This document shows, in pieces, positions 36,507-45,497 of a stretch of DNA of 45,497 bases. The stretch comes from Acetobacterium sp. (GTDB lineage Bacteria; Bacillota; Clostridia; Eubacteriales; Eubacteriaceae). The stretch is taken from the NCBI GenBank assembly GCA_028692885.1, contig JAQUWM010000015.1, forward strand, positions 1 to 45,497. The letters are read 5' to 3'. Positions within the stretch are counted from its first letter, which is position 1. Every line of letters begins with the position of its first letter. Under the pieces are notes generated by a model, which saw only the letters and a program-made list of their open reading frames with translations, was not told the origin of the DNA and ran no database searches. A program made the translations under genes and the position numbers.

Positions 36507-36535
36507 TTGACAAATAATTAACAACGAGGTAGTAT
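36507..36535 (+). promoter_or_regulatory. Promoter of formate dehydrogenase operon
   Basis: A consensus TTGACA and TAGTAT are separated by 17 bp. Transcription would begin near 36542, giving a leader of about 310 nt with a structured RNA and a terminator-like hairpin. Confidence 0.65.
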
Positions 36536-36570
36536 TCAATTAGAAAATTAAATATCTCCAAACCTAAAAA

Positions 36571-36668
36571 TTCTAAGGACATACTTTTGTATCTCTATGA
36601 ACGATAGGCACCAGGGTACGACTGGAAACGGTTTTATCTCCCATTGTGGAAAGGAGAAGACTAAAGAA
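36571..36668 (+). ncRNA. Structured leader RNA, copy 1 (candidate Mo/W-cofactor riboswitch)
   Basis: Shares with 45084-45172 the ordered motifs TTCTAAGG, CTATGAAC, CAGGGTAYGACTGGAAACGG and TCTCCCAKTGTGGAAA. Predicted helices: a hairpin between TTCTAA and ATGAAC whose stem differs in sequence between copies but still pairs; ACTG-GAAA-CGGT with a GNRA tetraloop; and CTCC paired with GGAG. The block from CTATGAAC through the GAAA hairpin aligns without gaps. Location between the promoter and a formate dehydrogenase operon, near MoeA-like and FdhD genes, suggests sensing of molybdenum/tungsten cofactor, or the metal or formate. The RNA class is my inference; I cannot confirm it matches a known family. 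Confidence 0.6.
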
Positions 36669-36773
36669 TAACGAATAATGAAAAGACAGATCTGCATATT
36701 ATTATGATGATAGTTTTTGTTTTTCAGTATTTTGGATTATTAAGCATGTAATCCTTTTCAAAAGTTTTTTTAT

Positions 36774-36819
36774 AACTCCTTTCGATATCAGATTGGAGTT
36801 TATTTATTTTTTGGAGTTT
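36774..36819 (+). terminator. Attenuator-like hairpin in the fdh leader
   Basis: AACTCC (36774-36779) pairs with GGAGTT (36795-36800), followed by TATTTATTTTTT. A second GGAGTTT at 36813-36819 can compete for the same AACTCC. It sits between the structured RNA and the first gene, as expected for a riboswitch expression platform. Confidence 0.5.
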
Positions 36820-36852
36820 CAAACTATAAAAAATTTTTGAGGAGGCGGTTTT

Positions 36853-37365
36853 ATGAACAGAAATGCAAGTGGTTGCATGAAAAAAGATGGGAAAGATCAT
36901 TTGGTTGAAGAAATCATTGCTAGGCATAAAAATTCTAACGGCGCATTAATCCCGGTATTACATGAGGTCCAGGATTTATACGGGTATTTGCCTGCCGAAG
37001 CACAAGCAAAAGTTGCCAAAGAAATGAATGTCCCGATTTCAGAGGTTTTCGGTGTGATTTCTTTTTATTCGCACTTTGCTTTAAAACCAAAGGGCAAATT
37101 TAAAATTTCCATATGCATGGGGACAGCGTGTTATGTAAAAGGTGCGGGTCCAATACTGGACAAACTAAAAGAAAACTTAGCGATTGGCATCGGGGAAACG
37201 ACTGCGGACGGTCAGTTTACCCTCGAAGAATGCCGATGTTTAGGTGCCTGTGGCTTAGCACCGGTTTTAACTGTAAATGGGAAAGTTTATGGTCGCTTAA
37301 CAAAAGATGATGTCACTGGAATCATTGACGATTGTAAACGTGATGAAGAGGAGATTGTTCAATGA
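36853..37365 (+). CDS. NuoE/HydC-like [2Fe-2S] diaphorase subunit
   Basis: 170 residues. Thioredoxin-like ferredoxin of the NuoE family. The N-terminal helical part (about 15-75, with LIPVLHEVQDLYGYLP) is typical. The [2Fe-2S] ligands are CMGTAC and, about 40 residues later, CRCLGAC. It passes electrons to the NuoF-like flavoprotein, as HydC does in bifurcating hydrogenases. GAGGAGG precedes the ATG. The next gene overlaps by 4 nt (ATGA), so the genes are translationally coupled. First structural gene of the operon behind the structured leader. Confidence 0.92.
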   Translation: MNRNASGCMKKDGKDHLVEEIIARHKNSNGALIPVLHEVQDLYGYLPAEAQAKVAKEMNVPISEVFGVISFYSHFALKPKGKFKISICMGTACYVKGAGPILDKLKENLAIGIGETTADGQFTLEECRCLGACGLAPVLTVNGKVYGRLTKDDVTGIIDDCKRDEEEIVQ

Positions 37366-37727
37366 AAACACTGGCAGAATTAGAAGCAATCAGAAAAAGA
37401 ACCTTTGATGAAATAGGCATGCGAGCGCATACTGATTATACTCGGGTCGTTGTCGGTATGGCAACCTGCGGAATCGCAGCTGGAGCAAGGGAAGTCATGA
37501 ACGCATTTGTTTCTGAAATCCAAAAAAGAGATATTGCGGATGTCAATGTTTCGGCAACAGGCTGCGTTGGTGTCTGCAGATTAGAACCGATTGTAGATGT
37601 CATCGATAAAGATGGCAAAAAGGTGACCTATGTACATATGACACCAGAAAAAGTGGCTAAAGTTGTTTTAGAACACCTTGCAAATGGGAAGATTTGCTTG
37701 GAGTATACTTTACAAGAAGAGGAATAA
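37362..37727 (+). CDS. Small thioredoxin-like [2Fe-2S] ferredoxin subunit (HydD-like)
   Basis: 121 residues. Thioredoxin-like [2Fe-2S] protein with Cys residues in MATCGIAAG and TGCVGVCRLEP, and the sequence REVMNAF near residue 46. Small subunits of this type accompany HydABC-type hydrogenases and HylABC-type formate dehydrogenases in anaerobes. It overlaps the NuoE-like gene by 4 nt and is followed after 28 nt by the NuoF-like gene. It is probably an additional electron-transfer subunit of the complex. Confidence 0.85.
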   Translation: MKTLAELEAIRKRTFDEIGMRAHTDYTRVVVGMATCGIAAGAREVMNAFVSEIQKRDIADVNVSATGCVGVCRLEPIVDVIDKDGKKVTYVHMTPEKVAKVVLEHLANGKICLEYTLQEEE

Positions 37728-37755
37728 ATTTAAAATTCAAAAGGAGGATAACTAC

Positions 37756-39552
37756 ATGCAATTGTTTCGTTCACATGTTTTAGTTTGTGGTGGTACGAAT
37801 TGTACTTTCGCAAATTCAGAAAAGATAATCGCAGCATTCGATAAAAATTTGGTTGAAAACAAACTTGAAAATGAAGTTAAGATTGTTCAGACTGGGTGTT
37901 TTGGGTTATGCGAAGAAGGTCCCATTATCGTTATTTACCCAGAAGGGACGATGTATTTTAAAGTTGACGTGAAAGATGTCCAGGAAATTGTCCAGGAACA
38001 TTTATTAAAGGGACGTCTCGTTAGCAGATTGCTGCAACAAAGCAGTGAAGCGGTTGAAGGCGAATATGCCATCGAAAAGTCCAGTTTTTTCAAAAAACAG
38101 ATGCGCGTTGCTCTTAGAAATTGTGGGGTCATTAATCCTGAGTTAATTGATGAGTACATTGCCTTTGATGGCTATAAAGCATTGGGAAAAGCACTCACCG
38201 AAATGAAGCCAATGGAGATCATCAAAACCATTAAGGATTCCGGACTCCGCGGAAGAGGCGGCGGCGGATTTCCCACCGGTACCAAATGGGAATTTGCTGC
38301 AAAACAGGACAATGAACAAAAATACATCTGCTGTAATGCTGATGAAGGCGATCCCGGAGCGTTTATGGACAGAAGTGTTCTGGAAGGCGATCCCCATTCT
38401 GTTATCGAAGCGATGGCCATCGCCGGATACGCAATTGGAGCAAATTACGGCTTTATTTATGTCCGGGCAGAGTATCCGATTGCTGTGAAAAGACTTCAGA
38501 TTGCCATTGACCAGGCCAAAGCGTATGGCTTGCTAGGCGATAATATCTTAGACACGGGCTTTAAATTTGATCTTGAAATCAGGCTGGGTGCAGGTGCTTT
38601 TGTATGTGGCGAAGAAACGGCACTGATGACATCGATTGAAGGTAAACGAGGCGAGCCCCGAGTCAGACCGCCATTTCCGGCGGTAAAAGGTCTATGGCAA
38701 AAACCGACGATCCTGAACAATGTTGAAACATTAGCAAATATTCCGGTGATCATGTTAAAAGGTTCGGAGTGGTTTGCAAGTATGGGAACCGAAAAAAGCA
38801 AGGGAACCAAAGTGTTTGCTGTTGGTGGGAAAATTAATAATACCGGGTTAATAGAAATTCCGATGGGAACAACCCTCAGAGAAGTTATATACGATATTGG
38901 CGGTGGTATACCGGATGGCAAAAAATTTAAAGCCGCTCAAACAGGTGGTCCTTCAGGTGGTTGTATTCCAGCAAGTCATATTGATACACCAATTGATTAT
39001 GAATCCTTAATCGAATTGGGTGCCATGATGGGGTCCGGCGGTCTCATTGTTATGGATGAAGATACGTGCATGGTCGATATCGCCAAGTTCTTTTTAGAAT
39101 TCACCGTCGATGAATCCTGTGGAAAATGCAATCCCTGTCGTTTAGGCACCCGAAGAATGATGGAAATGTTGGATAAAATTACTAAGGGCAAAGGCGTAAT
39201 GAGTGACCTTGATGAACTTGAAAACCTTGCCAAAGATATCAAGGCATCTTCGCTGTGTGCGTTGGGACAAACGGCACCAAATCCAATTCTGAGTACCTTA
39301 AGATATTTTAGAGATGAATACGAAGCCCATATTCGCGATCATAAATGTCCAGCTGGTTCGTGTAAGGCGTTATTAGCTTATGAAGTCATCGAAGAAAAAT
39401 GTGTGAGTTGTGGTCTCTGCGCTAAAAATTGTCCGGTGAATGCGATTACCGGATCTAAAAAAGAAAAAATACCATTTGTTATCGACCAGGATATCTGTAT
39501 CAAGTGTAATGTCTGTTTTGAAAAATGTCCTGCTGAAGCGATAAAGAAATAA
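37756..39552 (+). CDS. NuoF/HydB-like NAD(P)H-binding flavoprotein subunit
   Basis: 598 residues. An N-terminal thioredoxin-like [2Fe-2S] domain (about 1-100) precedes the NuoF core. NAD(H)- and FMN-binding motifs are GLRGRGGGGFPTGTKWEF (about 165-183) and CNADEGDPGAFMDR. The [4Fe-4S] motif is SCGKCNPCRLGT (about 455). Two C-terminal ferredoxin clusters are CVSCGLCAKNCP and CIKCNVCFEKCP. This matches HydB of bifurcating hydrogenases, where FMN is the proposed bifurcation site between NAD(P)H and ferredoxin. The open frame extends upstream to 37678, but ATG 37756 follows AGGAGG and gives the normal N-terminus. The catalytic subunit follows after 22 nt. Confidence 0.93.
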   Translation: MQLFRSHVLVCGGTNCTFANSEKIIAAFDKNLVENKLENEVKIVQTGCFGLCEEGPIIVIYPEGTMYFKVDVKDVQEIVQEHLLKGRLVSRLLQQSSEAVEGEYAIEKSSFFKKQMRVALRNCGVINPELIDEYIAFDGYKALGKALTEMKPMEIIKTIKDSGLRGRGGGGFPTGTKWEFAAKQDNEQKYICCNADEGDPGAFMDRSVLEGDPHSVIEAMAIAGYAIGANYGFIYVRAEYPIAVKRLQIAIDQAKAYGLLGDNILDTGFKFDLEIRLGAGAFVCGEETALMTSIEGKRGEPRVRPPFPAVKGLWQKPTILNNVETLANIPVIMLKGSEWFASMGTEKSKGTKVFAVGGKINNTGLIEIPMGTTLREVIYDIGGGIPDGKKFKAAQTGGPSGGCIPASHIDTPIDYESLIELGAMMGSGGLIVMDEDTCMVDIAKFFLEFTVDESCGKCNPCRLGTRRMMEMLDKITKGKGVMSDLDELENLAKDIKASSLCALGQTAPNPILSTLRYFRDEYEAHIRDHKCPAGSCKALLAYEVIEEKCVSCGLCAKNCPVNAITGSKKEKIPFVIDQDICIKCNVCFEKCPAEAIKK

Positions 39553-39574
39553 CTATTTACAAAGGAGCTTAGTA

Positions 39575-42268
39575 ATGATTACTGTAACAATTAATAATAA
39601 AGTATTGAAAGCGAAAGAAGAGCAAACGATTCTTCAAATAGCAACAGATAACGGGATATATATTCCCACCCTATGCCACATGGACGGGATTCATGATACC
39701 TATTCATGTCGAATTTGCGTCGTTGAGGTAGAAGGTGCAAGAACACTGATTCCTTCATGTGCAAGCAAAGCAACGGATGGGATGGTAATAAACACTGCCT
39801 CTGACAGCGTCCTCAGCGCTCGTCGCAACATCATCAACCTGTTGTTATCTAATGGTGAACATAATTGTCTGGCATGTGAAAAAAGCGGTGAATGTAGTCT
39901 GCAAAAAATCGCCTACGAATTAGGAATCGAAACACCGGCGTTCATTATGGAAAGCATGGATAAGGCAACCGTTGATGATTCAAGTGTGATGATTGTCAGA
40001 GACAACCGAAGATGCATTCTTTGCCGAAGATGTGTTACCGCCTGTAATGATATTGCCTGTAATGATGTTTTATCGGTGGGCTTTAGAGGAAGTGAGACCA
40101 CGATCATTTGTGATAATAACATTGCCATGGGCGAGTCAACCTGTGTTCAATGCGGGCAGTGTGTCCAGGCCTGTCCAGTAGGTGCTTTAACCAATCGAAA
40201 ATCCATCGGCAAGGCCCGATCATGGGAAACCACACATGTGAGAACAACCTGTGCCTACTGTGGCGTCGGATGTCAGTTGGATCTGCACATGAAAGGTGAC
40301 GAAATTGTAAAAGTTACCGGAGTGGAAGATGCCCTTCCCAATAAAGGAAGACTCTGTGTCAAAGGCCGTTACGGTTATGACTTTATTTATTCTGGTGAAA
40401 GACTGACTTCGCCGCTGATTAAGGAAAATGGCATTTTCAGAAAAGCATCCTGGGACGAAGCCCTGGACTTGGTCGCTTCAAAATTCAAAGCGATCATCGA
40501 AAAAGATGGCCCGGATGCAGTTGGCGGAATCAGTTGTGCAAGAAGTATTAACGAAGATTCTTACCAGATGCAGAAATTATTCAGAGCCGCATTTAAATCA
40601 GCAAATATCGATCACTGCGCAAGAGTTTGTCATGCACCGACAGTAGCTGGTTTGATCACCTCATTTGGTACCGGTGGGATGACCAACTCTATTGGTGAAA
40701 TGGCGAACACCAACATGCTGTTTGTGATTGGATCAAATATGACAGAAGCTCATCCGGTCGCGGCTACCTTTGTAAAAAATGGCAAACGAAACGGCGCCAA
40801 GCTCATCGTTGTCGATCCCCGAAGACATCGACTGGCAGACTATGCCGATGAATTTGCCCAAATAAAGGTCGGATCAGATGTGGCTTTCTTAAACGGACTG
40901 ATGAATGTGCTGATCACCGAAGATCTCTACGATAAAGAGTTTGTCGAAAATTGTTGTGATAATTGGGATGCCTTAAAAGAAAAGGTTCTGGAGTACCCAC
41001 CCAAGAGAGTATCTGAAATCAGTGGTGTATCCGAAGAACAAATCATTAAAATTGCCAGAATGCTGGCCGAAAATAAGCCCGGAATGGCAATGTATACGCT
41101 GGGAATTACAGAGCATACCTGCGGAACCAACAATGTCATGTCGGTTGCAAACCTGCAGATGGTATTAGGCAATATCGGAAAAGAAAATGCCGGAGTTAAT
41201 CCATTACGAGGTCAGAATAATGTCCAGGGAGCCTGTGACATGGGAGCACTTCCTAATGTATATCATGGCTACCAACAGGTAACCGACCCTGCCGCCAAGG
41301 CGAAATTCGAAAAAGCCTGGGGCGTTGAAGGCCTGCCTGATAAAAACGGATTGATGATCCCGGATATGATCAGCGGTTTAAAAACCAAAGAAGTTAAAGG
41401 TTTATACATTTTTGGAGAAAACATTGTCGGAACTGAACCTGATATTTCTCATGTTATCGAATGTCTGGAAGCGGCAGAATTTATTGTCTGCAACGATATC
41501 TTTGAAACAGAAACCACTCAGTATGCCGATGTTGTTCTGCCGGCGGCAGCCTGGAGTGAAGATGAGGGTACCTTCACCAACTGTGAAAGACGAGTCAGTC
41601 TGGTTAGAAAAGTAAAAGATGCTCCGGGACTGGCAATGCCTAACTGGTGGATCTTTAAACAAATTGCCAAGCGTTTCGGTCAAAATTGGGAAGCCAATAG
41701 CGGCCAAGAAATATGGGATAACGAAATTGCGCCTTTGGCACCATTTTTTGAAGGCATCACCTTTAAAAAAATTCAGGGCGATGGCATCCAGTGGCCCTGT
41801 AACTGTATCGAAAGCCCTGGAACACAGATACTGCATTTAGATGGTAACTTTACCCGTGGTAAAGGACATTTAATGGCCCTGGACTGGACACCGCCCGCTG
41901 AAGTGCCGGACACCGAATATCCGTTTACATTAAGTACCGGAAGACGGCTCTACCATTATCATACCCGGACTCAAACCGGACGGGCACAAGGACTCAATGA
42001 GTTGCTGCCGGAAGAGTATGCGGATATTTCAGTGGAGGATGCAGAACGATTGGGCATCGAACATAATGAAATGATTATTGTAAAATCCCGTCGCGGTACC
42101 GTAACGGTTAAGGCTCAGGTATCTGACCGTATTCCGGAAGGGCTTGTTTGGATGGCCATGCATTATTTTGAAAATAATTGCAATTGGTTAACCGGCAGAG
42201 CAACGGATACGATTACAAAAACACCAGAATACAAGGCTTGTGCCGTTGCGATAGAAAAAATATCTTAA
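39575..42268 (+). CDS. fdhA: Formate dehydrogenase catalytic subunit (Cys-type) with NuoG-like N-terminus
   Basis: 897 residues. The N-terminus has a [2Fe-2S] domain (LCHMDGIHDTYSCRICVVE), a His-Cys [4Fe-4S] motif (EHNCLACEKSGEC) and two ferredoxin clusters (CILCRRCVTAC, CVQCGQCVQACP), as in NuoG. From about 225 it is a Mo/W-bis-MGD formate dehydrogenase: [4Fe-4S] CAYCGVGCQ, and active-site CARVCHAPT with Cys352 encoded by TGT (40628-40630). No TGA is present, so this is the cysteine, not the selenocysteine, form. C-terminal MGD-binding motifs STGRRLYHYHTRTQTGR are intact. It oxidises formate or reduces CO2, passing electrons to the NuoE/F-like subunits. AAAGGAG precedes the ATG; a terminator follows. 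Confidence 0.94.
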   Translation: MITVTINNKVLKAKEEQTILQIATDNGIYIPTLCHMDGIHDTYSCRICVVEVEGARTLIPSCASKATDGMVINTASDSVLSARRNIINLLLSNGEHNCLACEKSGECSLQKIAYELGIETPAFIMESMDKATVDDSSVMIVRDNRRCILCRRCVTACNDIACNDVLSVGFRGSETTIICDNNIAMGESTCVQCGQCVQACPVGALTNRKSIGKARSWETTHVRTTCAYCGVGCQLDLHMKGDEIVKVTGVEDALPNKGRLCVKGRYGYDFIYSGERLTSPLIKENGIFRKASWDEALDLVASKFKAIIEKDGPDAVGGISCARSINEDSYQMQKLFRAAFKSANIDHCARVCHAPTVAGLITSFGTGGMTNSIGEMANTNMLFVIGSNMTEAHPVAATFVKNGKRNGAKLIVVDPRRHRLADYADEFAQIKVGSDVAFLNGLMNVLITEDLYDKEFVENCCDNWDALKEKVLEYPPKRVSEISGVSEEQIIKIARMLAENKPGMAMYTLGITEHTCGTNNVMSVANLQMVLGNIGKENAGVNPLRGQNNVQGACDMGALPNVYHGYQQVTDPAAKAKFEKAWGVEGLPDKNGLMIPDMISGLKTKEVKGLYIFGENIVGTEPDISHVIECLEAAEFIVCNDIFETETTQYADVVLPAAAWSEDEGTFTNCERRVSLVRKVKDAPGLAMPNWWIFKQIAKRFGQNWEANSGQEIWDNEIAPLAPFFEGITFKKIQGDGIQWPCNCIESPGTQILHLDGNFTRGKGHLMALDWTPPAEVPDTEYPFTLSTGRRLYHYHTRTQTGRAQGLNELLPEEYADISVEDAERLGIEHNEMIIVKSRRGTVTVKAQVSDRIPEGLVWMAMHYFENNCNWLTGRATDTITKTPEYKACAVAIEKIS

Positions 42269-42288
42269 GTCTACGATACCATATTGGT

Positions 42289-42320
42289 GGGAGTGTTGGT
42301 AGCAACACTCCCTATTTCTT
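42289..42320 (+). terminator. Terminator after fdhA
   Basis: GGGAGTGTTG and CAACACTCCC form a perfect 10-bp stem with a GTAG loop, followed by TATTTCTT. The following two genes may have their own weak promoter in 42321-42425, or depend on readthrough. Confidence 0.75.
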
Positions 42321-42428
42321 ATAAACTGCCAGTTTAGTTATTAGTTCTTCGTGCTAAGCATTGAATTGCTTTTGTGATAGAACGGGTGACTAGATACTGA
42401 GCTGTTAACTATTTTTAGAGGTAAAAAA

Positions 42429-44018
42429 ATGAAATTTGGCGAATTAACTTACAATGAATATACAAAAAGAATAAAAGCTTTTCATGGAACAGTAGCCCCT
42501 GGTATTCTACTCGGAGGATTTATGGTAAATCTAGCCATGGAGAAACTTCCAGAAGGCGGTTTTTTTGATGTCATCTGTGAAACAAAAACATGTTTACCGG
42601 ATGCTGTGCAGCTTCTGACCCCCTGTTCGATTGGGAACGGCTGGCTGAGAGTGCTCGATTTAGGTCGTTTTGCGGCAGTCTTTTATGATAAATACAGCGG
42701 CTTGGGATTGCGGGTATGTCTGGATCGATCAAAGCTTGAAGAATGGGAAGAAGTAAAAACCTGGTTTTTAAAATTGAAGCCGAAACACGAACAGGACTCT
42801 GAACTTCTTTTCGCCCAAATAAAAGCAGCGGGAACATCTCTTTTTACCACAGCGCCGGCAAAAGTTCATGAAAAACATTTGAAAAAAAAGAAAATGGGAA
42901 AAACAATGATTTGTCCCATTTGCCAGGAAACATTTCCAGAGGCTCATGGAAGCATTTGCCGTGGATGTGCCCAAGAGCTGCCATATGATTTAATTCAAGA
43001 AAGCGCCGATACAGATCAAAAAAAAACGCTTTTATTAAATAAAACCACCGTTGCAGAATCAGTCGGTATGCATTTGCTTCATGATATTACACGGATCATC
43101 TATAAAAAAGAAAAAGGTGTTGCTTTTAAAAAAGGACATCTCATCACGGCAGAAAATATTCATATGCTCCGTGAACTGGGAAAGAATAATGTCTTTGTTG
43201 AAGAACAGAATATTTTTATCAAAGGCTATAAACACGAGGATGAAGTTGTTTTAGATTTTGCCCAAAATATGAGTGGGCAGGGGATCTGTTTTAATGAAAT
43301 CCCTAAAGAAGGAAGAATTAATCTTACCGCTGAAATTGATGGGATCTTTATTTCCGATGAAGAACAATTAGAACGGTTTAATATGTCATCAGACGTCATC
43401 TGCGCTTCCCTGCCAAACTATCAGCTGGTTAAAAAAGGCGACACTGTTGCTGCAACCCGAGCCATTCCCCTATATATTTCGAATGAAGATTATTTAAAGG
43501 CTCTGAATTGTTTGAAAAAGAAAACACTGTTTACTGTCCAGCCGCTGAGAAAAGCAAAGGTGGGGATTTTAGTAACCGGTACCGAAGTATACGAAAATTT
43601 AATCGAAGACCGCTACACAAAAGTCATTCAGTCTAAGGTAGAAGCCTATGGATGTGAAGTGGTTTCAAAAAAGATAGCCCCTGATGATGTTAATATGATC
43701 AGCGGTATCATTCACAACATGATAAATGCAGGGGCAGATATGATTATCACGACCGCAGGACTTTCCGTTGATCCAGATGATATGACTTTAGAAGGAATTA
43801 TGAATGCCGGTGCACAAGATTTGCTTTATGGTGTCCCGGTTTTGCCTGGTTCGATGGTCGTCTGTTCAAAAATTGATGATACCCAAATCATCGGTGTGCC
43901 TGGTTGTGGGATATATAACGATCGTTTTAGTTTTGATTTACTTTTGCCACGTCTATTGGCAAACATTACAATTACCAGTAAAGATTTAGCCCGGATGGGT
44001 AATGGTGGGCTTTTATGA
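42429..44018 (+). CDS. FmdE-zinc finger-MoeA-like fusion protein
   Basis: 529 residues in three parts. Residues 1-150 resemble FmdE (FHGTVAPGILLGGFMV, CETKTCLPDAVQ, SIGNGWLRV), a domain linked to molybdenum formylmethanofuran and formate dehydrogenases. Residues 165-190 hold a four-Cys zinc-finger-like element (CPIC...CRGC). Residues 375-529 form a molybdopterin-binding domain of the MoeA/MogA type (GILVTGTEVYE, ITTAGLSVDPDD, GVPGCG). Between them (215-370) is a region resembling part of MoeA. It probably inserts or matures the Mo/W cofactor for the adjacent formate dehydrogenase. The fdhD gene follows after 48 nt. Domain calls come from motif recognition; the enzymatic step is inferred. Confidence 0.8.
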   Translation: MKFGELTYNEYTKRIKAFHGTVAPGILLGGFMVNLAMEKLPEGGFFDVICETKTCLPDAVQLLTPCSIGNGWLRVLDLGRFAAVFYDKYSGLGLRVCLDRSKLEEWEEVKTWFLKLKPKHEQDSELLFAQIKAAGTSLFTTAPAKVHEKHLKKKKMGKTMICPICQETFPEAHGSICRGCAQELPYDLIQESADTDQKKTLLLNKTTVAESVGMHLLHDITRIIYKKEKGVAFKKGHLITAENIHMLRELGKNNVFVEEQNIFIKGYKHEDEVVLDFAQNMSGQGICFNEIPKEGRINLTAEIDGIFISDEEQLERFNMSSDVICASLPNYQLVKKGDTVAATRAIPLYISNEDYLKALNCLKKKTLFTVQPLRKAKVGILVTGTEVYENLIEDRYTKVIQSKVEAYGCEVVSKKIAPDDVNMISGIIHNMINAGADMIITTAGLSVDPDDMTLEGIMNAGAQDLLYGVPVLPGSMVVCSKIDDTQIIGVPGCGIYNDRFSFDLLLPRLLANITITSKDLARMGNGGLL

Positions 44019-44066
44019 AATTAAAATGGCGTTGATTTCAATGGTTATTTAAGGATGTTGATAAAG

Positions 44067-44867
44067 ATGAAAGATATTATCTATGAAGAATATGAAGTTT
44101 TAGAAATAAATAAAAAAGATGACGGTTATAAACTGGACCCGGCCACCAAAAAAGTGATCATCGAAATTTCCCTCAAGATTATTGTTAACGAAGCCGAACT
44201 CGTTTCCTTATTATGCCTTAACCAGCATCAAGAAGAGCTGGCTCTTGGCTTCCTATACAGCGAAGGCGTCATCAGCTGCTTTGCTGATGTAAAAAAAATT
44301 TCTTATAATGAGAGGATGCAGGCTGTCATTATTACGTTGAAAGAAGGAATTCTCGTTAACAGGCAGGAAAGTCTGCGAAGTATCACTTCCGGATGTGGAA
44401 AGTGTTTTACCTACATCAACCCGCTTAAACAAGATCAATATGCTATTGTTGAAACGGATAAACTCTATTCGTTGGAAATAATTTTAAACATGATGAAAGA
44501 TTTCATGAAAGAATCCGAAATATTCAGGGATGTTGGCGGGGTACACAGTGTGTTGTTTTATACACCAGAATATCAAGTTTTAAACGAAGATATTGGCAGA
44601 CATAACTGTTTTGATAAGATAACCGGGATCCTATTAAAAGATCGGCAAATTGATGTAACGGCAAAGAGTATTGTATTTGTAAGCGGAAGAATTTCGTCAG
44701 AAATAATGACGAAGATCGTACGACTTGGAACACCGGTTTTGGTTTCCCGATCGACACCGACTTCAGCCGCAGTAAGACTTGCGAAACAGTACCATGTGAC
44801 TTTATTAGGATATGTCAGAGGAGACCGAGGCTTTGTCTATACGTGTCCCGAAAGAATCGCATTTTAA
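44067..44867 (+). CDS. fdhD: Formate dehydrogenase accessory sulfurtransferase FdhD
   Basis: 266 residues. FdhD family: the essential Cys pair in TSGCGKC (Cys110 and Cys113), GGVHSVLFY, NEDIGRHNCFDKI and SGRISSEIMTKI are all intact. FdhD transfers sulfur from a cysteine desulfurase to the Mo/W-bis-MGD cofactor, which formate dehydrogenases need for activity. Its position behind the MoeA-like fusion and the fdh genes fits. An ATG at 44055 is too close to AAGGA; ATG 44067, 11 nt from it, is preferred. Confidence 0.94.
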   Translation: MKDIIYEEYEVLEINKKDDGYKLDPATKKVIIEISLKIIVNEAELVSLLCLNQHQEELALGFLYSEGVISCFADVKKISYNERMQAVIITLKEGILVNRQESLRSITSGCGKCFTYINPLKQDQYAIVETDKLYSLEIILNMMKDFMKESEIFRDVGGVHSVLFYTPEYQVLNEDIGRHNCFDKITGILLKDRQIDVTAKSIVFVSGRISSEIMTKIVRLGTPVLVSRSTPTSAAVRLAKQYHVTLLGYVRGDRGFVYTCPERIAF

Positions 44868-45024
44868 TTATTGTGAAAGGTATTCCGGCAGCTCAATAAG
44901 CTGCTAAAAATAACATTGTCGGATGCGTTGCTTTTTATATCCTTCATATTATTGATGATATTAATACGAGGATTATTTCATTGAATGAAATTAAAAATTT
45001 TTTGAAAAAAAAAGTAATTTTTAC
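44868..45024. other. Intergenic region after fdhD
   Basis: A short hairpin GCAGCT/AGCTGC at 44888-44904 without a strong T-run could be a weak terminator. Otherwise AT-rich, with no supported gene. A short reading frame starting near 44981 runs through the structured RNA and is rejected. Confidence 0.4.
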
Positions 45025-45053
45025 TTGCAATTCAGAGCATTATAAGGTATTAT
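45025..45053 (+). promoter_or_regulatory. Promoter for structured RNA copy 2
   Basis: TTGCAA and TATTAT are separated by 17 bp, 55 bp upstream of CTATGAAC. In copy 1 the corresponding distance is 60 bp, so the promoter-RNA arrangement is conserved. Confidence 0.55.
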
Positions 45054-45083
45054 TAAATCAGATAAAAACTCCGAAGTTTAATG

Positions 45084-45172
45084 TTTCTAAGGTTCGATGC
45101 ATTTGGACTATGAACTTAAATCGGCAGGGTATGACTGGAAACGGTTATGTCTCCCAGTGTGGAAAAGGGGCT
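45084..45172 (+). ncRNA. Structured leader RNA, copy 2
   Basis: Homologous to 36571-36668: TTCTAAGG, CTATGAAC (45108), CAGGGTATGACTGGAAACGG (45125) and TCTCCCAGTGTGGAAA occur in the same order and nearly the same spacing. The first hairpin has a different stem sequence (GGTTC/GGACT) that still pairs. The last helix is CTCC/GGGG here against CTCC/GGAG in copy 1. It is followed at once by terminator hairpins, and no gene starts within the remaining 300 bp, so it is either a long leader for a gene beyond the window or a free-standing RNA. Confidence 0.6.
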
Positions 45173-45200
45173 TTGACAAGGTAAGATTCTTGTCAATTTT
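45173..45200 (+). terminator. Hairpin immediately after RNA copy 2
   Basis: TTGACAAG and CTTGTCAA form a perfect 8-bp stem followed by TTTT. Its contact with the end of the structured RNA makes it a candidate switchable terminator. Confidence 0.6.
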
Positions 45201-45220: not shown

Positions 45221-45257
45221 AAAAAGACCATTCCTACTGGAGTGGTCTTTTTATTTA
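45221..45257 (+). terminator. Strong terminator downstream of RNA copy 2
   Basis: AAAAAGACCATTCC pairs with GGAGTGGTCTTTTT (one G-U) around a TACT loop, followed by further T residues. Confidence 0.85.
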
Positions 45258-45326
45258 TGTCCCTGGATTTTATTTATTTGTAACCACAATATTTAAATTC
45301 GCACAAAAAACGGGACGCCCCTTTTA

Positions 45327-45373
45327 TAAAACCAGAGTCGACCTAACCAAACCGTCTCTGGTTTTTATTTTTT
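45327..45373 (+). terminator. Additional terminator-like hairpin
   Basis: AAACCAGAG and CTCTGGTTT pair, followed by TTATTTTTT. It may end a transcript from either strand. The remaining 120 bp to the window end are A-rich with no feature I can support. Confidence 0.6.
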
Positions 45374-45497
45374 AATAGGAAATTACGCAAAACAAGAAAA
45401 AATAAAATAAACGGCCAAAAGGAAAAAAGGGTATAACAAAGAAAGCCTTCAAACGAATGAAAAAAGATCAGAAAAAGAGATCATCCTCAAAGAAAGC

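Follow-up and report, generated by a model that had tools for sequence, protein, structure and literature searches.

What does a riboswitch control where no gene follows it? The question is raised by the 3′ end of a 45,497-nucleotide stretch of Acetobacterium sp. DNA (GenBank contig JAQUWM010000015.1; here the window), which is an entire contig of a draft genome of 3.03 Mb in 202 contigs (87.24% complete, 4.65% contamination). The window carries two copies of a structured RNA, one on either side of a formate dehydrogenase (FDH) operon, and 3′ of copy 2 there is no sense gene in the window, the contig ending at 45497. We propose, at a probability of roughly three in four, that copy 2 is a riboswitch-gated small RNA aimed at the messenger of aldehyde:ferredoxin oxidoreductase (AOR), which it would repress when cofactor is absent. 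Copy 2 would then be a known sensor in a new use.

The two riboswitch copies and the noncoding unit of copy 2

Both copies are Moco/Tuco (molybdenum cofactor/tungsten cofactor) riboswitches of the Rfam family RF01055. Using Infernal cmscan with the gathering cut-off of 36 bits, copy 1 matched at 36544-36672 with 53.5 bits (E 3.9e-10) and copy 2 at 45057-45186 with 46.3 bits (E 5e-8). An earlier sequence-only reading had noted conserved blocks and helices shared by 36571-36668 and 45084-45172; these are real and far above chance, and the two intervals are the inner parts of the RF01055 matches. That reading took the RNA to be undescribed, which was wrong since the family is already in Rfam, and left the choice between a Moco/Tuco riboswitch, which is right for both copies, and a new riboswitch class, which we rejected because both copies score above the RF01055 cut-off. 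The formate dehydrogenase module that it saw between the copies is borne out by NCBIfam and Pfam gene calls, but the tie to this enzyme holds for copy 1 and not for copy 2, whose relatives adjoin AOR genes; likewise the two copies are not the whole set, as seven RF01055 copies, the window pair included, occur in the draft genome (87% complete). It named the riboswitch as one alternative and overlooked the novel part, the noncoding tail of copy 2.

The P3 positions are deleted in the RF01055 alignments of both copies. P3-less members of the family were proposed to sense the tungsten cofactor, a rule that is a correlation (Regulski et al. 2008, PMC2408646), and both window aptamers are of this proposed tungsten-cofactor type. 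Direct cofactor binding by a Moco/Tuco riboswitch is not demonstrated in the available text of that founding paper, and we infer the cofactor as ligand of either aptamer from sequence.

From its promoter to its final terminator, copy 2 forms one conserved noncoding unit composed of the aptamer, T1, T2, hairpin B and T3, with the following features:

45025-45053, forward strand: predicted promoter TTGCAA-N17-TATTAT, 9 of 12 consensus matches in a scan whose sites are as a class not above chance; a TTGCAT..TATAAT-like pair stands at the same place in most relatives
45057-45186, forward strand: copy 2, P3-less RF01055 aptamer (cmscan)
45173-45196, forward strand: hairpin T1 with a T-run, first terminator candidate (terminator scan; aligned in relatives)
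45223-45252, forward strand: T2, strong terminator hairpin, whose 5′ arm CCATTCC can alternatively pair with the aptamer segment GGAAAAGG
45259-45316, forward strand: hairpin B (GTCCC..GGGAC; alignment pairing), which holds the targeting block
45262-45285, forward strand: 24-nucleotide targeting block CCTGGATTTTATTTATTTGTAACC, complementary to the AOR mRNA leader
45330-45368, forward strand: T3, final terminator, with a variable stem (covariation) and the conserved loop CTAACCAA at 45343-45350
45371-45497, no strand assigned: repeated DNA at the contig end (sequence matches), where relatives carry convergent AOR genes

The last 127 bases (45371-45497) match with 98% identity at contig C172 of the same genome, with 100% in genome G005 and with 88-96% in several copies in G015 (G, C and L numbers denote our genomes, contigs and loci), and are probably the end of a mobile element that broke the assembly.

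Relatives were compared across 19 Acetobacterium genomes at 79 sites, comprising 76 RF01055 rows (two of them the window copies and one below the cut-off) and three sites found by BLAST only. At 18 of the 79, in 16 of the 19 genomes, the riboswitch stands tail-to-tail with an AOR gene. Among these 18 AOR-linked units mean pairwise identity is 0.43 5′ of the promoter, 0.65 in the promoter, 0.80 in the aptamer, 0.70 from T1 to T2, 0.71 in hairpin B (0.87 in 45263-45286) and 0.76 in T3, and it falls to 0.36 in the 140 columns past T3. The tail motif TTATTTGTAACC or a shorter form of it is present in 17 of the 18 units (not in G006), and the loop motif CTAACCAA or variants likewise in 17 (G004:C13:92323 is one letter off). 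In a second genomic position described below, both motifs occur in the G004 copy, as they do in the window copy, and neither occurs in the other two. Within up to 600 nucleotides read 3′ of the aptamer at the remaining 56 sites, TTATTTGTAACC was absent, CTAACCAA appeared twice as a stray 8-mer, and the two motifs were never found together. No conserved open reading frame lies in the unit; the frames on its strand past T3 are three short ones (84-104 amino acids, in G002, G003 and G010) that overlap the place of a moaD-like gene on the opposite strand. With its own promoter and terminator T3 conserved, the unit has what is expected of a base-pairing small RNA.

Counts over 20 units, and the alignments A1 and A2, omit the second-site copies without T3 (G010 and G018) and the remnants in G013 and G009. 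The T3 stem shows two-sided changes in 7 of its 10 pairs while the loop is kept, and in hairpin B 95% of cells are paired over the four counted pairs; this hairpin is off by one column in one clade, so that pair counts may understate it. Taken together, 95.0% of 280 cells in the two helices pair, against 88.2% in shuffles (0 of 500 as high), two-sided changed cells number 26 against a shuffled mean of 8.9 (0 of 500), the covariation score is 0.450 against 0.309 (0 of 500), and eight pairs carry a two-sided change against 4.5 (7 of 500 as high), while sliding the partner lowers pairing to at most 53.9%. The T3 stems, scored without strand bias, contain 14 G-U and no A-C cells among 200, hairpin B contains 13 G-U and two A-C cells, and in each of the 20 units T2 folds more stably on the riboswitch strand; therefore the RNA works from the riboswitch strand. 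A known Rfam family for the tail was sought and rejected: eight matches had E of 1 or less, the best being tsr25 (29.5 bits, cut-off 63, E 0.00013; the stretch is short and AT-rich), and were taken as chance.

Genomic setting and complementarity to the AOR leader

The AOR encoded at the 18 sites is 599 amino acids long in 16, 598 in G016 and 586 in G002; PF02730 was found at all 18 places, and PF01314/PF02730 were tested on two of the sites. At L065 (G002:C136) a stop interrupts the AOR frame beside the unit about 14 codons from its start, through either a mutation or an assembly error. The nearest AOR loci belong to A. dehalogenans, A. wieringae, A. fimetarium, A. paludosum, A. bakii and others. 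At nine of the 18 sites, as called, unit and AOR are separated by the gene of a small protein on the AOR strand, and one such protein that was tested belongs to the ThiS family (25.4 bits, cut-off 22.5); AOR itself comes directly past the unit at three sites (G004:C13, G010:C1:3089032 and G018:C19). The upstream neighbours of copy 2 relatives vary, and a role of copy 2 as a 3′-untranslated-region element of the FDH operon was for this reason rejected as a general one. Neither copy 2, within the window, nor its relatives stand upstream of same-strand molybdenum or tungsten genes; they are linked to AOR by complementarity and by their location near it.

The unit also has a second site, behind moeA, at L068:8785-9121 (G004), L070:10256-10597 (G010) and L078:114-450 (G018). 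The copy there is complete in G004, and decaying and without T3 in G010 and G018; these copies face a sigma-54 regulator gene, except that in G018 the contig ends before the regulator becomes visible. G013 has no AOR match and only a 5′ remnant of the unit, and in G009 the only AOR match lies in a 711-amino-acid frame and only a tail remnant is left (G009:C1:2648150, tail model E 1.2e-10, without an evident aptamer). We count this co-loss of unit and AOR in favour of our proposal. No unit is present in G015 (83% complete), whose AORs lie in frames of 634-730 amino acids. Among 391 genomes of the class, searched with strict filters, the tail matched in nine; four are members of the genus, including the G009 remnant, and the five matches outside the genus (E 0.0026-0.0057) were taken as chance.

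Run over the genus at E of 1 or less, the tail covariance model gave, besides the units, weak antisense matches just 5′ of AOR starts (E 0.03-1), mostly at tail-model positions 22-61; other weak matches, away from AOR, had E of 0.03-0.8. In all 18 unit-linked AOR genes a TATAAT-like box is followed immediately by GGTTACAAATAAATAAAATTTAGGAGG or a sequence close to it. This sequence is the complement of the block in hairpin B and reaches from the predicted AOR mRNA start to the Shine-Dalgarno sequence. The counts do not include L232, where an AOR with the common leader starts at the edge of a contig.

Duplex energies were calculated for 20 unit-leader pairs, representing ten distinct blocks and five distinct leaders, each against 200 dinucleotide shuffles; the leaders used were that of the AOR on G004 C10 for the G004 second-site unit and, for the window copy, that of the AOR on contig C1 of its own genome. 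In 18 of the 20 pairs the duplex came to -29.9 to -35.6 kcal/mol and lay below all 200 shuffles, whose means were -8.8 to -11.0 kcal/mol and whose lowest single value was -23.3. The window block with the AOR leader of the same genome reached -34.3 kcal/mol (shuffled mean -11.0, lowest of 200 -19.9), and in the comparison of the ten distinct blocks on that leader it was the best at -34.1, the next giving -28.0.

The match is also specific. The exact 15-mer GGTTACAAATAAATA occurs 35 times in the 19 genomes, in 18 units (as reverse complement), 16 AOR leaders and one alcohol dehydrogenase leader. Allowing one mismatch gave 53 matches, against 25 for the reversed control pattern; the 18 one-mismatch 15-mers include one AOR leader in G008 and two decayed second-site units; of the remaining 15, the one in G015 is, as read, not a unit. 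Two genomes have a second AOR, 93% identical to the query, with another leader (L192 and L194), and no copy of the block was found in the fetched locus of either, about 4 kb on each side; hence the block is not merely typical AOR leader sequence. Besides unit-linked AOR genes and these paralogues, the leaders of two sense AOR-family genes were read.

At L070:3470-4633, in G010, a gene of the iron-containing alcohol dehydrogenase kind stands beside AOR, with an AOR-like promoter and leader. Its NCBIfam matches include none above cut-off. As judged from this leader, the G010 alcohol dehydrogenase is likely a second target of the unit.

Some changes in leader and block are matched. In G014 and G005 AAATAGATTT stands in the leader in place of AAATAAAATTT, and AATCTATTT in the block in place of AATTTTATTT; on the common leader the common block gives -35.6 kcal/mol, and on the G014/G005 leader -27.3, while the G014/G005 blocks lose about 3-7 kcal/mol on other leaders and more on the leader of the window's genome. 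In the latter genome ATCTAGG stands in the AOR leader where others have ATTTAGG, and GGAT in the window block where others have GAAT, which gives a G-C pair at that place; the unit that adjoins this genome's AOR matches another changed part of the leader (TTAATTTG) and not the ATCTAGG change. The complementarity to the ribosome-binding region is thus conserved and accompanied by matched changes, as expected of a small RNA, with two of the 20 pairs weak and one block pairing better across clades. Since the draft genome (87% complete) has a single AOR match, action of the window copy would be in trans, except if an AOR is encoded past 45497 or in the 13% that the draft lacks.

Proposed switching and its alternatives

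In the proposed mechanism a stand-alone small RNA has copy 2 as its sensor. RNA polymerase would start at the unit's own promoter and make the P3-less Moco/Tuco aptamer. With cofactor bound, the aptamer would keep its 3′ segment (GGAAA and the P1 strand GGGG), T1 and T2 would form, and transcription would end near 45252, leaving a short RNA without the targeting part. Without cofactor, GGAAAAGG would pair with the T2 5′ arm CCAUUCC and the polymerase would continue to T3 near 45368. In the long RNA hairpin B would be partly exposed, so that GUAACC could contact GGUUAC at the 5′ end of the AOR messenger; pairing would then extend over 24 nucleotides into the Shine-Dalgarno sequence and block AOR translation. 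The T3 loop UAACCAA may also touch AOR codons 2-4 (UUGGUUA), which makes it a possible second contact with the messenger. The unit would thereby act as an inverter, by which the tungsten enzyme AOR is made when cofactor is present and otherwise not.

In prefix folds of the aligned units GGAAAAGG pairs with CCAUUCC before the 3′ arm of T2 exists, and the six alternative pairs of this proposed antiterminator are kept in 118 of 120 cells. In tail folds the nine nucleotides UUUGUAACC have a mean unpaired probability of 0.54-0.64 in 19 of 20 units (0.83 in G006), and the T3 loop is unpaired at 0.85-1.00 in 19 of 20 (0.43 in G006).

A number of observations weigh against this proposal. On the side of switching, the proposed antiterminator prevails in the consensus prefix fold with little to spare, it is short (-4.2 to -5.6 kcal/mol, and -0.3 in G006), its GGAAA side is fixed by aptamer conservation anyway, and T2 resembles a strong terminator placed 5′ of the targeting part. 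Predicted folds leave the whole block unpaired only in part (mean probability 0.37-0.60). As to covariation, hairpin B alone shows a two-sided change in just one of its four counted pairs, and further pair types in both helices number 19 against 17.6 in shuffles, of which 94 of 500 were as high. On the side of pairing, two duplexes are weak: that of the unit adjoining the AOR of the window's genome, at -21.3 kcal/mol, lies just under its shuffled values, and that of the decayed unit in G006, at -16.9, does not lie below them. The G016 block forms a stronger duplex with the G014 leader (-31.7) than with the leader of its own genome (-30.1), and for the window block the common leader is as good a partner (-35.2 kcal/mol) as that of its own genome. 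Gene conversion could copy changes between the unit and its usual target, which form inverted repeats separated by about 2 kb, and the T3 loop match falls on AOR codons that are also kept in paralogues without a unit. Finally, under strict filters the tail is found in one genus only, and the sole complete unit not adjacent to AOR, that of G004, nevertheless lies in the same gene cluster, about 3.6 kb away.

Could the riboswitch instead act in cis, controlling transcription into the 3′ end of the AOR operon by antisense or convergent interference, as S-box/ubiG and AspocR do? All 18 AOR-linked units are tail-to-tail with AOR, each riboswitch lying 3′ of and convergent with the gene, and the second-site copies of G004 and G010 lie in the same clusters. 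A survey puts the number of antisense-position Moco riboswitches at 24 (P 4.34e-5; PMC9943018), and some AOR-convergent sites may be listed there as antisense-acting, Acetobacterium not being named in its main text. However, conservation ends at T3, before the convergent genes, so that no antisense transcript overlapping the target gene at the locus is predicted from sequence, and in some genomes (G003, for example) a further hairpin, seen by eye, lies between T3 and the genes. Moreover, the conserved complementarity is to the AOR 5′ leader about 2 kb off and not to the 3′ end, a complete unit in G004 faces another gene, and no AOR is present in the roughly 130 bases from T3 to the window end. 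Simple convergent antisense was demoted because of the AOR leader match, and we consider it unlikely.

If pairing with the leader is accepted, its sign might still be the reverse, the small RNA raising AOR expression by stabilising the 5′ end or blocking a nuclease, or acting with cofactor present. A duplex at the 5′ end of an mRNA can protect the messenger, and pairing here begins at the predicted first nucleotides; but the duplex extends into the Shine-Dalgarno sequence, and ligand-dependent termination would remove the targeting part, which leaves either version improbable. An alternative without RNA-RNA pairing, in which a regulator binds the shared sequence as DNA at both places, would fit the presence of the same 15-mer in the unit and just past the AOR promoter; yet in the unit this 15-mer lies between terminators, away from any promoter and always antisense to the AOR leader, within a hairpin whose 13 G-U against two A-C cells are those of the riboswitch strand, and we regard such a site as very improbable. 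Least credible of all is that copy 2 is an ordinary leader whose downstream gene was lost past the contig end. The window contig does stop in repeated DNA soon after T3, and three of the 18 AOR-linked sites list the short riboswitch-strand frame mentioned above, but the downstream genes are on the opposite strand at the other 15 and at two of the three second-site copies (the third runs off its contig), and the unit closes with a conserved T3.

Weighing these points, we hold it fairly probable, on sequence comparison, that a tungsten-cofactor riboswitch without a cis gene gates a small RNA inverter for AOR, and in one genome also for alcohol dehydrogenase, that this module has been duplicated, and that the window copy is the better-matched trans regulator of the AOR on another contig.

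Copy 1, related systems and implications

Copy 1 is, in contrast to copy 2, an ordinary leader riboswitch, known in kind, that stands upstream of same-strand molybdenum or tungsten genes, those of the FDH operon:

36507-36535, forward strand: predicted copy 1 promoter TTGACA-N17-TAGTAT, 10 of 12 in the same scan, chosen by its position just 5′ of the aptamer
36544-36672, forward strand: copy 1, P3-less RF01055 aptamer, FDH operon leader (cmscan)
36771-36810, forward strand: T-rich terminator-like hairpin AACTCC..GGAGTT (folds), likely the copy 1 expression platform
36853-44867, forward strand: FDH operon of six genes (NCBIfam and Pfam; FdhA by translation)
36853-37365, forward strand: NuoE-like gene (NCBIfam/Pfam)
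37362-37727, forward strand: gene of a small 2Fe-2S-type protein (NCBIfam/Pfam)
37678-39552, forward strand: NuoF-like gene (NCBIfam/Pfam)
39575-42268, forward strand: FdhA gene, Cys form, no in-frame stop (translation)
42429-44018, forward strand: gene of an FmdE/MoeA-like protein (NCBIfam/Pfam)
44055-44867, forward strand: FdhD gene (NCBIfam/Pfam)

The hairpin between copy 1 and the operon is clear in the folds of three related FDH leaders and less clean in that of the window. A copy 1-type riboswitch precedes the same FDH gene order in four of the 19 genus genomes, that of the window and three others. The protein encoded at 42429-44018, between fdhA and fdhD, joins an FmdE domain, its zinc finger and a MoeA-like molybdopterin-binding domain; full-length relatives of it (73-75% identity) occur in three of the 18 other genus genomes, and in those three a riboswitch leader stands upstream of the same first three FDH genes.

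Among the 79 sites many other RF01055 copies precede same-strand genes and a few have an opposite-strand gene first. In the window's genome one copy lies before TupA/TupB-like tungstate transport genes, which score below the curated cut-offs. AOR-family genes stand in sense behind RF01055 at L119 (G022) and L115 (G001, one contig), where the same enzyme family seems to be controlled in cis. At L092 (G014:C1:2612924) a copy of 64.5 bits has opposite-strand genes downstream and no unit tail. In G000 one riboswitch lies before a BtuC/FecD-like ABC permease gene (L091, C7) and another before a gene group without a strong NCBIfam match (L090, C175); these downstream genes are possibly unrecognised molybdenum- or tungsten-related ones.

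Copy 2 may be compared with several known riboswitch RNAs, one of which, Rli55 of Listeria, has EutX as its Enterococcus counterpart. Rli55, as described in the text available of PMC8079631, is a stand-alone B12 riboswitch RNA whose post-terminator part is the effector under the same cofactor gating, but it sequesters the protein EutV, whereas the copy 2 tail matches the target mRNA directly. This direct match makes an Rli55-type protein sequestration by copy 2 less likely. AspocR, also a B12 riboswitch RNA of Listeria, lies at the 3′ end of its target and shortens an inhibitory RNA with cofactor, which turns the gene on; it is, however, a 1,400-nucleotide antisense RNA of its own locus, unlike the copy 2 unit of about 310 nucleotides with a 24-nucleotide match to a leader about 2 kb off (PMC8079631, same text). 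SreA, an S-adenosylmethionine riboswitch RNA in that source, pairs in trans with the 5′ untranslated region of prfA mRNA and hinders translation, but its effector is the terminated RNA, which also serves a downstream operon, whereas the copy 2 effector would be the read-through RNA and has no operon. In the S-box/ubiG-mccBA system of Clostridium acetobutylicum (PMC9943018, main text) a convergent riboswitch likewise lies 3′ of the operon and ligand turns the operon on, yet through interference by antisense-transcribing polymerases, while the copy 2 transcript should stop before the gene.

For RF01055 itself the available text of PMC2408646 describes RNAs upstream of genes and does not contain the word 'antisense', whereas copy 2 has no evident gene and carries a targeting tail. 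The A. bakii transcriptome (PMC6239172) reports two Moco motifs with transcription start sites near molybdopterin genes, and 69 intergenic start sites; the word 'aldehyde' is absent from the text available. Among the open-licence papers listed for the Moco riboswitch, for riboswitches with AOR or in Acetobacterium and for related subjects, no title or beginning of an abstract reports a Moco/Tuco-gated small RNA.

Riboswitches usually control their own RNA, and few act via a separate one, the examples in the texts available being from Listeria and one Clostridium operon (PMC8079631, PMC9943018). If the proposal is true, sensor and AOR target could be mutated on both sides in vivo, giving a clean readout of tungsten versus molybdenum, which would be valuable because direct binding of the unstable cofactor is undemonstrated in the available text of PMC2408646. 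A Moco/Tuco-gated small RNA would, moreover, extend trans riboswitch action to another ligand class and to carbon metabolism. Since AOR and alcohol dehydrogenase constitute the acid-to-alcohol route of gas-fermenting acetogens, the switch, if real, could help explain or tune the effects of tungsten on alcohol formation.

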